A DNA stretch of 36,159 nucleotides from positions 1 through 36,159 of the forward strand of contig JAAYKE010000011.1 of the NCBI GenBank assembly GCA_012522575.1, read 5' to 3'. The notes beneath the pieces were generated by a model that was not told the DNA's origin, ran no database searches, and was given only the letters and a program-made list of their open reading frames with translations. Every line of letters begins with the position of its first letter. Position 1 is the first letter of the stretch. Positions 7,367-12,882 of the stretch are shown piece after piece. The DNA is from Armatimonadota bacterium (GTDB lineage: Bacteria > Armatimonadota > UBA5829). Both the position numbers and the translations under genes were made by a program.

Positions 7367-9307
7367 CTACTTATCCAGTGTCACGGCGTATACATCAACC
7401 CCAGCGGAGATATATAGCTTGCCATCGTTCGAGCACGCCACGTTATTAATCTTTTCCGGGGCAGTAGCGACCACCGAGGTCCTTCCGTTGCGCATATTGA
7501 GCTTAATTATATTCTTATTATGCGGGTAGAAGACAATGCCGTCCCCTGCTGTGGCATAACTTCGTCCGTACCTGCTCGGAGAATCCACCAGAGTCATGAA
7601 CCTGTGTTTGATCGTATCGAACAGGGTCATTTTGCCGTTGACTGTGATCAGCACGCGCCTGGATTTCGCGTCGTATGCGAGCGCCCACACATTAGTGCTG
7701 CCCTCGAATTCCTTTTTGAAGATTACTTCTTCGGTTTTCGGATCAAGGACGCCGAACCTTGGACTTTCTCCGGATTTTGTGGGCAGGCCGTTGCCGCCGA
7801 GTCCTGAGCTGATGTAAACCATGCCATCATCCGCCGGCAATGCGCTGATTATGACCTGCTCGCCGAGCGGGTTTTCTATGACTTTGTTGTCCCCGGTTTT
7901 GAGATCGGTTATGGATACAGCCCCGCCGTATTTGCCGTATTGCGTGTACCAACCGGTATAGAGCTTGCCATCCGGGCCGAGATTTGTGCCCCCTTCCGGC
8001 CTGATGTAGCCTTGTGAGCCGAGGCTTGCAATCACCTTTGCATTTACGCGAATTATCTGAACCCAGTGCTGTGACGGATCGTACTTTACATTGTCGCCGC
8101 GAACGTAGGATACCGCGTAGACCTTGTCGTCGAAGAATGCGACATCATATACCTCTCCTCCGGCATCACATATCCTGTTTGTGCTCACGTATTCCTTTGT
8201 ATCAGGATTCATCCACCAAAGAGTCTGGCCGAAGGTCGGGCCTCCCCACAGCTTGCCATCGGGAGCCACTCTCAGGAACATAGACAGGCGAGGCGCGGAT
8301 TCTACGGGAACCGGCTTCAGTTCAACTTTGGTATCGCCGGGTTTGATCACAAAATAATCCTGCCCGCGCAGTCCTAGCACCCATCCTTTGCTGGTCACTT
8401 GCTGTATTCCGCCGCGATGCATATCAAGATCGCAGATCAGTTTGATGTCTTCGTCGCCGACTGTATAGCTATATAGAGCGCGGCCCTGTGTCATATACGC
8501 CGTTGTCGGGGTCGTCATGCGCGCAAAGGACCATATGCCTTTGTCCGCAGGAGGCGTGGGGAATGGTATGGGTTTGATCTCTTCCAGGGTTTTGCCGTCG
8601 AAAACCTGCCTGCCGGTGACAAAGTTACCGTCGAAATTTGTTCCGAACACTCCGTTGGATATGCCGGGCGGAGCAGACTCGAATTTTTTGGTTTTAGGGT
8701 CGTAAATCAGGCTGGTAGGTTTTTCTGTGTTGAAATAGCATAGTATTCGGCCATCGGGCAGCGCCCATACATATCTGCAATATAGATTGGGAGGCGCAGG
8801 AGCGCCGATGTCCTCTACGGTATAATCATCTAGATTTAGCGCGCCGAGTTTGCCGCCGGGATATGTGCCGCCATAGACCCTGCCGTCGTTGCCCAAAGCA
8901 AGGTTCCAGATGTAGGTCTCGCCGGGAAAGTCCGAAACTTTGATAAACTCCATTTTATTGAGGTCAAAGGTCATAAATACGCCGTCATAAAATGTGCCGA
9001 CGATCATCCTGTCCCCCGGAACTTCGCTGAGCGCCCAGGAACCTGACCCGGCAGGCGCACGATAGGATCGACCTGTGTCGTTTTCAAAGTCTATGAAAAG
9101 AAGCTCGCCGTGGGTGCTTTCGTTCATATCGGAAAGCACAAACAACTCATTGCCGGTTGCGCGATCCTTCACCAGAGCCGTCGCAAGGATATTTTTCGCC
9201 CGACACGGCTGCCCGAGGTGCTTAAATTCTGCCGCTCCCGCGCTTGCCGCAATGGACATCAGGGCTATGCTTGTCAACATCATACCAATAGCTTTCTCCC
9301 AGTTCAT
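7367..9307 (-). CDS. Exported beta-propeller protein
   Basis: A 646-residue exported protein built of repeated beta-propeller blades. ATG 9307 is chosen because GGAGG lies just upstream on the minus strand and because it puts a signal peptide at the N-terminus (MNWEKAIGMMLTSIALMSIA, AASAGA, cleavage before AEFKH); reading further upstream only adds non-signal residues. Blade-like units recur: WALSEVPGDRMIVGTFYDG, WNLALGNDGRVYGGTYPGGK, WALPDGRILCYF, LRVAPDGKLWGGP, LGPDGKLYTGWY, LPADDGMVYISSG, and a final SNDGKLYISAG. The pattern (D-G-K/R/M-L/V-Y-G/S) resembles SMP-30, YncE and two-component-sensor-type propellers. No active site was recognised. It probably acts in the periplasm or at the surface as a binding protein or lyase-like enzyme for the substrate of the in-frame downstream MFS permease; that role is inference. 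Confidence 0.8.
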   Translation of the reverse strand: MNWEKAIGMMLTSIALMSIAASAGAAEFKHLGQPCRAKNILATALVKDRATGNELFVLSDMNESTHGELLFIDFENDTGRSYRAPAGSGSWALSEVPGDRMIVGTFYDGVFMTFDLNKMEFIKVSDFPGETYIWNLALGNDGRVYGGTYPGGKLGALNLDDYTVEDIGAPAPPNLYCRYVWALPDGRILCYFNTEKPTSLIYDPKTKKFESAPPGISNGVFGTNFDGNFVTGRQVFDGKTLEEIKPIPFPTPPADKGIWSFARMTTPTTAYMTQGRALYSYTVGDEDIKLICDLDMHRGGIQQVTSKGWVLGLRGQDYFVIKPGDTKVELKPVPVESAPRLSMFLRVAPDGKLWGGPTFGQTLWWMNPDTKEYVSTNRICDAGGEVYDVAFFDDKVYAVSYVRGDNVKYDPSQHWVQIIRVNAKVIASLGSQGYIRPEGGTNLGPDGKLYTGWYTQYGKYGGAVSITDLKTGDNKVIENPLGEQVIISALPADDGMVYISSGLGGNGLPTKSGESPRFGVLDPKTEEVIFKKEFEGSTNVWALAYDAKSRRVLITVNGKMTLFDTIKHRFMTLVDSPSRYGRSYATAGDGIVFYPHNKNIIKLNMRNGRTSVVATAPEKINNVACSNDGKLYISAGVDVYAVTLDK

Positions 9308-9513
9308 CAGAGTCCTCCAGTTTGCCTGACCTATGTTAACTGAAATTGCACGGGCCGTAAAGACGCTTCTCTGCAATAAGCAGCTTTTAAGGCCGGCGGC
9401 AATGAAAATCACAGACTTTTGAGACCATTGCAAAGCGGGTAATCTGTGCCAATGAGGCGAGAGATGATATAATATTGCCGTTGGGCGATTGGGCTGATAA
9501 AAATTGCCCGAAG

Positions 9514-9525
9514 TGACCTAAGTCA
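9514..9525 (+). promoter_or_regulatory. CRP/FNR-type palindromic operator upstream of hcp
   Basis: A perfect 12-base inverted repeat, TGAC-CTAA-GTCA, flanked by A/T. The half-site and spacing (TGA-N6-TCA) are those of CRP/FNR-family regulators; HcpR, the FNR-like regulator of hybrid cluster protein genes in several anaerobes, is reported to use a TTGAC-N4-GTCAA-like site. Its centre (9519.5) is 41.5 bases before the start point predicted from the TATACT at 9549-9554, the standard class II activator position. Confidence 0.6.
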
Positions 9526-9548
9526 AATTTAACGCCCATATATAGCGA

Positions 9549-9554
9549 TATACT
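9549..9554 (+). promoter_or_regulatory. -10 element of the hcp promoter
   Basis: TATACT, five of six bases of the sigma-70 consensus. The bases 17 upstream (AATTTA) are a poor -35, as expected if the operator at 9514-9525 supplies activation. Predicted start near 9561 gives a leader of about 36 bases with AGGAG at 9584-9588. Confidence 0.5.
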
Positions 9555-9596
9555 ATTGGTGTAGACTGTTAATAGGCTCAGAGAGGAGATCGTTTT

Positions 9597-11246
9597 ATGA
9601 GTATGTTTTGCTATCAATGCGAGCAGACCGCCAAAGGCTCCGGCTGTACGGCCGTTGGCGTATGCGGCAAGGATGCATCAACCGCAACGCTGCAGGACTT
9701 GCTGTTATATGCGGCCAAAGGCATATCGATGTATGCCCACAGGGCACGACAATTCGGCGCTTCCGATATCGATGTCGATATTTTCGTTATCAAAGCGCTG
9801 TTCGCGACGGTAACAAATGTGGACTTCGACCCGGAGCGCCTGCAGGGGATGCTCATTGAAGCTGCCAGCCTGCGTGACAAAGCAAAGGCTGTTTATGAGG
9901 ACGCCTGCGCAAAAGCCGGCAAAACCCCCGATCGATTGGATGGAGCCGCGCAGTGGAAACCCGAAAGCTCCATTGACGGCCTGATCGCACAGGGCGCTGA
10001 AATCTCGATTGTAAAGCGGATGACATCGCTTGGCGATACGATTGCGGGCTTGCAGGAACTGGTCACTTATGGGTTGAAGGGCGCGGCTGCGTATGCCGAC
10101 CACGCTCACATATTGGGCGTTCACAGCGACGAGCTATATGCGCTGTTCCATGAGGCAATGGACTTTCTGACCAAGCCGGACCCTACCCTCGATGAACTTC
10201 TGGGCTGGGCGCTTAAGACCGGCGAGATTAATATGAAGGCGATGGAGATTCTGGATGCGGCCAACACGGGCGCATACGGCCATCCCGTGCCGACTCAGGT
10301 GCGCGTGGAGCCGCTGAAAGGCAAGGCTATAGTGGTCTCCGGGCACGATCTCAAAGACCTCGAAGAGCTGCTCAAGCAAACCGAGGGCAAGGGAATCAAC
10401 ATCTACACCCACGGCGAAATGCTGCCGGCGCATGGTTATCCTAAGCTGAAAGCATACAAGCACCTCGTGGGCAACTTTGGCGGCGCGTGGCAAAACCAGG
10501 TCAAGGAATTCAACCAGTTCCCCGGTGCGATTTTGATGACCACCAACTGTATCCAGAAGCCGCGGGAATCTTATAAAGGCCGCATATTCACATCCGGTCT
10601 GGTTGCGTGGCCCGGAGTTGAGCATGTGCATAACTCCGACTTCAGCAAGGTCATTGAGGCCGCGCTGGCTGCGCCGGGCTTTGAAGAGGATGGCCCGGAC
10701 AAGGAAATCACGGTAGGATTTGGCCATAACGCGGTTATGAGCGTGGCTGGACCAGTGATTGATGCGGTCAAATCGGGCGCGATCAAGCACTTCTTCCTGG
10801 TAGGCGGTTGTGATGGCGCGAAGCCGGGTCGCAACTACTACACCGATTTTGCGCAGCAGGTTCCTAAGGACTGCGTGATTCTGACCCTTGCATGCGGCAA
10901 ATATCGCTTCAACAAACTCGAATTCGGGGACATCGGAGGAATTCCGAGGTTGCTCGATATCGGTCAGTGCAATGACGCATATTCTGCAATTCAGATTGCG
11001 GTCGCGCTGGCAGAGGCGTTTGGAGTGGGCGTAAATGACCTGCCGCTTTCGCTGATTTTGAGCTGGTATGAGCAGAAGGCTGTCGCGATTCTGCTGACCC
11101 TGCTTTACCTTGGGATCAAAAACATCCGCCTTGGGCCGACCTTGCCGGCGTTCGTGACACCGGACGTGCTCAATGTGCTGGTGGAGAAATTCAATATTAT
11201 GCCGATCTCGACTCCCGAAGAGGATTTGAAGGCTATATTGGGCTGA
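9597..11246 (+). CDS. hcp: Hydroxylamine reductase / hybrid cluster protein
   Basis: A 549-residue hybrid cluster protein. The family carries an N-terminal cubane cluster and a 4Fe-2S-2O hybrid cluster; it reduces hydroxylamine in vitro and NO to N2O in vivo, and is linked to nitrosative-stress defence in anaerobes. The N-terminal ligands are C5, C8, C17 and C23 (C-x2-C-x8-C-x5-C), the spacing of the strict-anaerobe class I proteins. Hybrid cluster segments are also clear: GHDLKDLEELL, YTHGEMLPAHGYP, TTNCIQKP, VGGCDGAKPGRNYYTDF, LACGKYRFN, and DIGQCNDAYSAIQIA. AGGAG at 9584-9588 is eight bases before ATG. It is a single-gene unit, with an FNR-type operator before it and a terminator after it. 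No NADH-dependent reductase (Hcr) is adjacent. Confidence 0.97.
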   Translation: MSMFCYQCEQTAKGSGCTAVGVCGKDASTATLQDLLLYAAKGISMYAHRARQFGASDIDVDIFVIKALFATVTNVDFDPERLQGMLIEAASLRDKAKAVYEDACAKAGKTPDRLDGAAQWKPESSIDGLIAQGAEISIVKRMTSLGDTIAGLQELVTYGLKGAAAYADHAHILGVHSDELYALFHEAMDFLTKPDPTLDELLGWALKTGEINMKAMEILDAANTGAYGHPVPTQVRVEPLKGKAIVVSGHDLKDLEELLKQTEGKGINIYTHGEMLPAHGYPKLKAYKHLVGNFGGAWQNQVKEFNQFPGAILMTTNCIQKPRESYKGRIFTSGLVAWPGVEHVHNSDFSKVIEAALAAPGFEEDGPDKEITVGFGHNAVMSVAGPVIDAVKSGAIKHFFLVGGCDGAKPGRNYYTDFAQQVPKDCVILTLACGKYRFNKLEFGDIGGIPRLLDIGQCNDAYSAIQIAVALAEAFGVGVNDLPLSLILSWYEQKAVAILLTLLYLGIKNIRLGPTLPAFVTPDVLNVLVEKFNIMPISTPEEDLKAILG

Positions 11247-11326: not shown

Positions 11327-11938
11327 CTACGGCTCAATGCCAATGAGCACCAGCGGGACCGCAGGAACGCCTCGGCCCTGACGAATTACATTGTAGAATT
11401 CCCCTTCGTAGTAGGAAGGGCCGGAACTCATCTCACGCTGCAGCGACTTCATCGGCATAATCTCAATGCCTACATCGATCCGATCACCCACATAAAATGC
11501 CAGATGCTTTACGAAAAGATCGTACGCAACAAATGAGTATTTACCAAATTGCACTTCTATTGCCACGCGATCTTTCACAAAATCGGTCTGATTATAGCTG
11601 AAGATGGCCTCCTGACCTGCTTGTTCAATCGCCTGTTTCTGTTCTTCAGGCGGCAAACTTAGCGTCTCGCGGATCAGTTTCTCATCTTTTGTAACCCAAT
11701 AATTTACTCGGCTCTCTGCCCATTGGGCTTCACGCAGTTTTTCAGCAAAAGATGCATTCAAGTCAACAGGGCTATAGAGCATCTTTCCCAGCATATTGCG
11801 TTCTCTGGACACTTTAGTTCTGCAAGCCTCCGCGTCAACAGCTCCAATGATATTTATGATTTCGTCATAAAGCTTCGGCTTGTGCACGAGCAAAAACTCA
11901 TAGCCGTTAAGATGAGAATGCATTGCGGCTATTTTCAT
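11327..11938 (-). CDS. BglII/BstYI-type type II restriction endonuclease
   Basis: A 203-residue protein with the BglII/BstYI endonuclease pattern: an N-terminal helical region, then QTDFVKDRVAIEVQFGKYSFVAYDLFVKHLAFYVGD split by D119, E128 and Q130. The D-x8-E-x-Q spacing equals the D84/E93/Q95 active site of BglII, and the length equals that of BstYI as I recall it. Family members cut after the first base of AGATCT or RGATCY; which applies cannot be read from the sequence. The ATG at 11936-11938 overlaps the stop of the methyltransferase gene by four bases (ATGA), so protective methylation is translated first and the two are coupled. Expected to act on unmodified incoming DNA in the cytoplasm. 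Confidence 0.85.
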   Translation of the reverse strand: MKIAAMHSHLNGYEFLLVHKPKLYDEIINIIGAVDAEACRTKVSRERNMLGKMLYSPVDLNASFAEKLREAQWAESRVNYWVTKDEKLIRETLSLPPEEQKQAIEQAGQEAIFSYNQTDFVKDRVAIEVQFGKYSFVAYDLFVKHLAFYVGDRIDVGIEIMPMKSLQREMSSGPSYYEGEFYNVIRQGRGVPAVPLVLIGIEP

Positions 11939-12882
11939 TCTGATTCCTCATTTAATGATATCTGAGTGTTGGAACCGTCAGTCCACGGCGGACTAACGAG
12001 CGTTTTGCCGGCTTTTGATGGATCGAAAACAGGTCGATCCATCGGTCGCGTGCGCAGATCGCCGTCAATCTCTTGTTGTATCCGCTGTTTGGCCAGTTCA
12101 ATATATTTAGGGTGAATCTCCACGCCGGCTCCGCGCCTGCCGTGGCGAATTGCAGCAATGATACTGGTTCCTGAGCCAAGAAATGGGTCAAATACCAGAT
12201 CGCCCTCGTTTGTCATAGAAAGCACAAGGCGTTCGATTAACTCGACGGGAAACTGGCAAGGATGCTCAGTCTTCTCAACGTGATTACTTTTTACGTTCGG
12301 TATGATCCAAAGATCGCCCGGGTTCTTGCCCAGCGGGTTACACGAATATTGTCCGGCTTTCGGGCCTTTGAAGTGCTTCTTTCCGGGGTATTTTTGCGGC
12401 ACTCTCACAGGATCAAGGTTAAATACATAGTCATTTCCCTTGGTAAACCACATAATTGTCTCGTAGCGACCGGAAAATCTCCGCGAACAGTGCAGGCCGT
12501 GCTCGAAATGCCAGATTATGCGGTTGCGCATTATCAGCCCTGAATCGACAAACACGGAATAGAGCAGCGCATCCAGCGGAACTACGCTACCATCTTCTAC
12601 AAAATTGCCGACCTGCCAGCATATACTCCCGGCGGGCTTCAGAATTCTTACGCACTGCTCTATCACCGCAGACTGCTGGGCGATGTAGTCACGCAACTCC
12701 ATCTTCTTCTCGTATTCCTTGCCGATGTTGTATGGAGGAGAAGTGACGACAAGCTGCGCGGATTCATCTGGAAAGTCATTCAAATGCTCCAGGCAATCGC
12801 CTTCGAATAAAACATACTCCGGAGGGCGCGCGGCATTTGACCGTTGATCTGAGAATAGGGCCAAGTTCCCTTGAGCAGGCAT
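11935..12882 (-). CDS. Type II DNA methyltransferase (beta class, N4-cytosine or N6-adenine)
   Basis: A 315-residue amino-methyltransferase. The catalytic motif IV TSPPYNIGKEYE (SPPY at 48-51) precedes the AdoMet-binding motif I DPFLGSGTS (FLGSG at 234-238) and GVEIHPKYIELAKQR, so the motif order is IV before I, the beta class. SPPY is typical of N4-cytosine enzymes, matching what is known of BglII-type modification, but N6-adenine cannot be excluded. A predicted target-recognition stretch lies between the motifs, with NRIIWHFEHGLHCSRRFSGRYE and LWIIPNV. GGGAG lies about eight bases upstream of ATG 12882. It is the first gene of a two-gene unit with the endonuclease. No controller (C) protein or Vsr-type nuclease is adjacent. 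Confidence 0.92.
   Translation of the reverse strand: MPAQGNLALFSDQRSNAARPPEYVLFEGDCLEHLNDFPDESAQLVVTSPPYNIGKEYEKKMELRDYIAQQSAVIEQCVRILKPAGSICWQVGNFVEDGSVVPLDALLYSVFVDSGLIMRNRIIWHFEHGLHCSRRFSGRYETIMWFTKGNDYVFNLDPVRVPQKYPGKKHFKGPKAGQYSCNPLGKNPGDLWIIPNVKSNHVEKTEHPCQFPVELIERLVLSMTNEGDLVFDPFLGSGTSIIAAIRHGRRGAGVEIHPKYIELAKQRIQQEIDGDLRTRPMDRPVFDPSKAGKTLVSPPWTDGSNTQISLNEESE

Follow-up and report, generated by a model that had tools for sequence, protein, structure and literature searches.

The hcp locus and its upstream region

The window, i.e., the whole analysed stretch of 36,159 nt, is contig C79 of a genome of 3.06 Mb (G000). It carries the gene of a hybrid cluster protein (hydroxylamine reductase), which was recognized by PRK05290 with 830 bits (cut-off 367), by TIGR01703 with 761 bits, and by Pfam Prismane. 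The features of the gene and of its promoter region are as follows:

9513-9526 (+), extended operator GTGACCTAAGTCAA, with centre at 9519.5, that is, at -41.5 from the predicted start
9514-9525 (+), CRP/FNR-type operator core TGACCTAAGTCA
9549-9554 (+), -10 box TATACT, 22 nt 3' of the 14-base operator
9561 (+), predicted transcription start (G), placed from the -10 box
9584-9588 (+), AGGAG, ribosome-binding site of hcp, recognized by its sequence
9597-11246 (+), hcp, coding for a protein of 549 aa
11260-11283 (+), terminator-like hairpin with T run just 3' of hcp (one found, 0.2 expected from shuffles)

The hairpin and T run directly follow hcp, and the gene is therefore probably transcribed alone. 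Directly 3' of hcp there is also a restriction-modification pair (11327-12882, - strand), composed of an endonuclease of the BglII type (PF09195) and a DNA methyltransferase similar to NF008572, with a score under the model cut-off. AGATCT occurs four times in the window, with 7.5 occurrences expected from base composition. The divergent gene at 7367-9307 (- strand) codes for a 646-aa protein with no Pfam match, and no such protein adjoins hcp in the 11 relatives' loci checked. A second half-site near this gene, CTGACCTATGTTAA (9326-9339, 8 of 10 positions), was treated as a chance match; it has no counterpart in genus mate G001, where the 400 bases before hcp hold no site scoring at least 8 apart from the operator.

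The earlier note placed the operator at exactly -41.5, and this was borne out by the distance between 9519.5 and 9561; the start is a prediction, and the sequence itself fixes the 22 nt that separate the 14-base operator from the -10 box. A good -10 and a bad -35 had also been described, and both were found at this promoter: TATACT is in place, and no -35 box is present, as the hexamers at spacers of 16, 17, and 18 nt match TTGACA at two, one, and zero of six positions, respectively. The palindrome TGAC-N4-GTCA, reported as perfect, is so in its 8-base core; the extended site is one position short of TTGAC-N4-GTCAA, as its distal half starts with G. Compared with the published HcpR consensus ATTTGACCNNGGTCAAAT (PMC545781), positions 9511-9528 agree at 13 of 16 positions and represent the top 18-mer on the + strand of the window.

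The bare palindrome was rejected as a measure of significance on its own, as its frequency is near the background genome-wide. TGAC-N4-GTCA occurs twice in the window against 0.44 expected, and five of 100 shuffles reached two. In the complete genome there are 39 occurrences versus 27 for the reversed control, and TTGACNNNNGTCAA (TTGAC-N4-GTCAA) with at most one mismatch is found 87 times versus 81 in the control. Within 200 bases upstream of hcp, the top-scoring 14-mer agrees at 9 of 10 positions, a value reached by 0.6% of 500 dinucleotide shuffles. Because the 8-base core is common, support for the operator has to come from comparative evidence, i.e., from its conservation.

Conservation of the hcp promoter in related genomes

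Hcp was sought in 61 genomes, and matches were obtained in 30. Eleven genomes with a match belong to the same family (G000, G001, G002, G003, G004, G007, G009, G010, G011, G013, and G014). An operator-like site of 8 to 10 of 10 positions precedes hcp in 8 of the 11, and TANNNT lies exactly 22 nt 3' of it in all eight, although sites in related genomes share ancestry and such counts are non-independent trials. Each of the other offsets between 8 and 39 has TANNNT in one of the eight at most. Among the eight genomes, the spacer has a mean identity of 33% over its first 20 bases, as compared with 76% and 86% for the half-sites, which served to select the sites, and 74% for the -10 box, which played no part in the selection. 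The -35 position agrees with TTGACA at zero to three of six bases. The weakest of the eight sites have a score of 8, which is reached by 4.6% (G011), 5.8% (G007), and 9% (G004) of shuffles. A constant gap through an unconserved spacer is a requirement of class II promoters, and the predicted geometry, recurring in each family genome with the site, supports the class II promoter with a CRP/FNR-family protein that the earlier note had proposed.

Within the family, the operator largely co-occurs with a regulator. The one CRP/FNR-family protein found in G000, described below, has a match in seven of the eight operator-bearing family genomes, with the gene cut by the contig end in G010 and with one stop codon in the aligned stretch of G007. 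Genomes G002, G009, and G013 are without the hcp operator and without a regulator match. In G004, the operator and the -10 box are retained despite the regulator being a remnant (L241:1076-1240), a 54-codon open frame that comprises the DNA-binding end only; no other significant regulator piece was found in 2.5 kb around it with four relatives as queries. Outside the family, G015 and G020 code for the regulator (47% and 43% identity, respectively) and have intact ferredoxin sites, but the operator is absent upstream of their hcp, and the link to hcp is therefore not universal. The hcp footprint was scored at loci with the N-terminus of hcp; L118 and L120-L127 were thereby excluded, and among them are G022 and G023, in each of which the regulator has a match.

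An alternative start of hcp transcription was considered at GTGCCA-16-TATAAT (9446-9473, + strand), a sigma-70-like element with its -10 TATAAT at 9468-9473, TG before the -10, and agreement with the consensus at 10 of 12 positions. If hcp were transcribed mainly from there, with the start near 9480, the palindrome would be located at about +40 and would be a repressor or roadblock site. G001 also carries TGGTATAAT upstream of its operator. However, 0.5 such promoters are expected by chance in the region, and with the same criteria, the 200 bases directly preceding hcp were free of such promoters in the other seven family genomes, including G001. The exact TATAAT upstream of the operator is restricted to G000 and G001 among the eight, and its distance to the operator differs, while the -10 box at offset 22 is kept in all of them. 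Main transcription from the upstream element is considered improbable. The element itself could be a second promoter of hcp or the promoter of the divergent gene.

The candidate regulator

The regulator gene had been said to be outside the window, and it was indeed located on another contig, C96. A search of the genome for a CRP/FNR-family gene, on which the earlier reading depended, returned one protein (G000:C96:8729-9499), and both HTH models used, PF13545 (HTH_Crp_2) and PF00325 (Crp), matched the same gene. The protein consists of a cNMP-type sensor domain and an HTH. The closest solved structure is DNR of Pseudomonas (PDB 3dkw) with 92 bits, followed by the next one with 76 bits. When a profile of 16 relatives was used, DNR scored 187 bits, an unnamed cyclic-nucleotide-binding protein 161 bits, 3d0s/3r6s-like CRP/FNR regulators about 135 bits, CRP 118 bits, and FNR 114 bits. 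No placement was obtained with NCBIfam, where the top model was FtrB (95 bits, cut-off 211), and Fnr and CRP scored 61 and 60 bits, respectively.

The oxygen sensor FNR has a set of four cysteines as ligands of its [4Fe-4S] cluster. There are three cysteines in the G000 protein, and therefore a cluster of this type cannot form; widely recurring cysteine columns among the relatives are only 35 (10 of 16) and 71 (14 of 16). The absence of the FNR cysteine motif is a feature of HcpR-type regulators, according to the cysteine rule in the available text of PMC1274295. The recognition helix has Gly and Glu where the CRP/FNR protein aligned to the regulator, against which positions 180 and 181 were numbered, has Arg-Glu. 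The pair Gly-Glu is found in G000, G001, G011, G014, and G003, and Asn, Ser, or Pro with Glu in eight further rows of the alignment; deviating pairs are Leu-Glu in one row and Arg-Asp in two distant rows. In the same source, the loss of Arg180 with Glu181 kept is connected with TTGAC-type sites, and by this rule Gly-Glu fits the TTGA half-site.

In HcpR regulons, proximity of the regulator gene to hcp is common but not obligatory. In G000, the regulator gene is not near hcp, as the two are on separate contigs (C96 and C79). Genes of related regulators lie at up to about 2 kb from hcp in G028, G035, G042, and G056, and in nine of the best 80 hcp loci listed. Regarding possible autoregulation, strict TTGAC-N4-GTCAA scoring up to about 1.5 kb from the regulator gene gave no site of 9 or 10 of 10 positions in six genomes (L128-L133); scattered sites of 8 are present in five of the six, in L131 one of them directly before the gene. 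Control of hcp by NsrR was rejected, as there were no matches to Rrf2 (PF02082) in the genome and the same search was positive in 13 of 14 control genomes.

The ferredoxin promoter and the extent of the predicted regulon

Fifteen genomes were searched with a strict composite pattern, composed of TGAYNNNNRTCARA and, at the fixed distance, TANNNT. The pattern occurs 17 times, versus four times for the reversed control, with zero to two matches per genome. Five matches precede hcp (G000, G001, G003, G004, and G007), three a ferredoxin gene (G000, G001, and G018), two a gene of an NnrS-like protein (G016 and G018), and one, in G017, another CRP/FNR homologue with 28% identity. The remaining six have no evident link to the circuit, and five of them are in genomes without a regulator match. 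The pattern is present at two places in the 3.06 Mb of G000 (control one) and at two in G001 (control zero), in both genomes at hcp and ferredoxin. The search for the palindrome upstream of other genes, suggested in the earlier note, led to a ferredoxin gene of G000 that is preceded by the strict composite of operator and -10 box. The ferredoxins have 251 to 254 residues (251 aa in G000) and Fer4 domains, and are frdX-like by kind of protein.

The ferredoxin footprint was scored in 250 bases before the gene against TTGAY-N4-RTCAA at 28 loci, of which the one without the N-terminus was dropped; L218 and L219 were not among the 28. An operator of 9 or 10 of 10 positions was found in all 16 scanned genomes counted as having the regulator, a number that includes G025 with a 52-residue regulator match and G010 with its cut regulator. 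TANNNT lies at offset 22 in 13 of the 16, the exceptions being G003, G007, and G023. Among the seven genomes without a regulator match, none has a ferredoxin operator of at least 9, and two have a site of 8. Where distant regulator homologues only were present, the operator was found in two of four genomes (G035 and G048), and the homologue adjoins the ferredoxin gene in G048 and hcp in G035. The footprint scan also recovered ferredoxin sites of G016 and G017 that the strict composite misses. The ferredoxin is encoded in 24 of the best 80 hcp loci listed and lies beside hcp in G026 and G027; in L033, L069, and L085, the genes of the regulator homologue, the ferredoxin, and Hcp are consecutive and have the same orientation.

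The ferredoxin site of G000 is a perfect TTGAT-N4-ATCAA FNR box, and the -41.5 geometry of class II promoters is used by FNR as well. Both would agree with a real operator read by an oxygen-sensing activator of the FNR type, with hcp simply induced by anoxia. Against this stand the three cysteines of the regulator, too few for the four-cysteine cluster, and its higher score with DNR than with FNR; an FNR-type reader is judged unlikely, marginally more so than the upstream promoter. That the hcp palindrome is a chance match, as the near-background frequency of its core (39 vs. 27) might suggest, is hardly credible given the spacing fixed in 8 of 8 genomes, the co-occurrence with the regulator, and the fact that both strict composite matches in G000 are at known HcpR core targets.

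The relaxed pattern TGAYNNNNRTCA-N23-TANNNT occurs seven times in G000 and six times in G001, versus two and one for the reversed control. An extended regulon in G000 was nevertheless rejected, as three of the five extra matches are inside open frames of 520 to 671 codons and two are repeat copies. The repeat is an apparently non-coding element with TCAAGTTTCGTGGCC (L234 and L238 in G000, L233 in G001), and its similarity to the relaxed operator pattern is a chance match. The NnrS-like proteins preceded by the composite begin at position 220 of L175 (G016) and at position 156 of L186 (G018), and are at least 491 aa long, as they are cut by the locus ends. The one from G016 matches PF05940 with 62 bits (cut-off 28), and its N-terminus resembles the hybrid-cluster-protein-associated domain TIGR03980 with a score below the cut-off. 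The G000 genome also has a 403-aa open frame of cytochrome c nitrite reductase (nrfA). This gene was rejected as a target, as the sole perfect site in the 5.2-kb stretch falls inside another open frame, and no operator with at most one mismatch was found in the 1.7 kb before nrfA.

Survey beyond the family

In a wider survey, the best 80 hcp loci listed were used, and the 79 with enough upstream sequence were scored. An hcp operator of at least 9 was found in 12 of these 79, versus 0.4 expected. Their records carry the names Lentisphaerae, Verrucomicrobia, Kiritimatiellales, Acidobacteria, Planctomycetaceae, and one other bacterium. When these 12 are taken together with G035, five of the 13 sites outside the eight family genomes have TANNNT at offset 22, and no other offset between 8 and 39 accounts for more than two. 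In a cross-phylum test of 26 genomes, 9 of the 11 that have an hcp operator of at least 9 also have a regulator homologue with E <1e-38, as do 2 of the 15 that lack the operator (Fisher p 0.00095). The E threshold was chosen after viewing the list and is narrowly missed by G067 and G074, both without the operator. The 15 operator-less genomes came from 16 picked by the authors out of 67 such loci; L049 and the operator-bearing L053 were not among the 26 genomes. Owing to common descent, these counts, too, are not independent trials.

Proposed mechanism and its meaning

The hcp palindrome is with good confidence interpreted, on the basis of the sequences compared here, as an operator through which a DNR/HcpR-like and probably NO-responsive regulator activates a class II promoter. 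This interpretation draws on features read directly from the genomes: the operator, the -10 box, the missing -35 box, the spacing across relatives, the single candidate regulator, and its co-occurrence with the operator. By analogy with the protein families concerned, a homodimer of the C96 protein would bind TGAC-N4-GTCA centred at -41.5, substitute for the missing -35 contact, and recruit RNA polymerase to TATACT. The trigger is probably NO, or nitrite yielding NO, with the signal presumably received through heme; Hcp would then be made and NO removed. The frame of cytochrome c nitrite reductase makes exposure to nitrite, and hence to NO, plausible. The same regulator would drive one other strongly predicted promoter, that of the 251-aa frdX-like ferredoxin, which has the same 22-nt geometry.

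HcpR-type control of hcp, as put forward in the earlier note, agrees with the motif and with the target set of hcp and frdX-like ferredoxin, and the regulator may be an HcpR orthologue, a member of the DNR branch, or another relative. It is tentatively suggested, as a possibility and not as the probable case, that the sole CRP/FNR protein, from a DNR-like branch, is an activator dedicated to nitrosative stress and took over HcpR targets (hcp and the ferredoxin, and in sister families NnrS with an N-terminal hybrid-cluster-associated domain), with a regulon of two class II promoters at one geometry that is lost as a unit together with the regulator. The palindrome is very probably a true binding site of the one CRP/FNR-type protein found in the genome, at the position from which such proteins activate genes, and the locus is a persuasive, though expected, case of a defence circuit against nitric oxide that is already known. 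With one regulator and two promoters, the NO-response circuit is well supported and open to testing in a lineage represented here by a fragmented assembly. It also shows that the -41.5 geometry and the targets of the HcpR type are retained where the regulator gene is located away from hcp. The strict composite is rare (zero to two matches per genome in the 15 genomes) and can therefore be used to flag the regulon in relatives, with some sites missed.

Comparison with known systems

In class II promoters of E. coli CRP and FNR, the site is centred at -41.5, overlaps and replaces the -35 box, and is combined with a good -10 box. The hcp operator has the same predicted position in place of the -35 and also a good -10. 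Unlike E. coli CRP, the regulator has no Arg at position 180 and is assigned another half-site, and unlike E. coli FNR, it has too few cysteines for an Fe-S cluster.

DNR of Pseudomonas (3dkw) is the closest solved relative of the regulator. According to the available text of PMC1274295, it reads the FNR-like TTGAT-N4-ATCAA, to which the ferredoxin site of this genome is an exact match. DNR controls denitrification genes, whereas the predicted targets here are hcp and ferredoxin.

The HcpR (HcpR1) regulon is similar in its consensus, ATTTGACCNNGGTCAAAT or wyTTGACnnnnGTCAArw, and in its targets, hcp and the ferredoxin frdX, as well as in the helix, where position 180 is not Arg and 181 is Glu (PMC1274295). 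Moreover, the hcp site analysed here is almost the same as that of D. psychrophila hcp1, TTGACtTAGGTCAA. This likeness is one of motif and target kinds, with the ferredoxin matched to frdX by kind of protein only. The differences from HcpR are the regulator gene away from hcp, G for the first T in the hcp site, and only two strict composite sites in the genome. Among published examples, two HcpR proteins share out the work in D. desulfuricans (PMC5701242), heme binding and a response to NO are reported for HcpR of P. gingivalis (PMC12750200), and hcp and frdX of C. difficile are induced about 200-fold by NO in the wild type, an effect absent from the hcpR mutant (PMC12915319), as far as the available portions of these sources go. 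The literature found on HcpR or Crp-Fnr control of hcp contains, in its available portions, no mention of Planctomycetes. The motif, both targets, and predicted positive control are already described for HcpR in delta-proteobacteria (PMC545781 with its Table 10; PMC1274295), and the additions made here are the lineage, a single regulator encoded apart from hcp, a regulon of two promoters, and the strict spacing.
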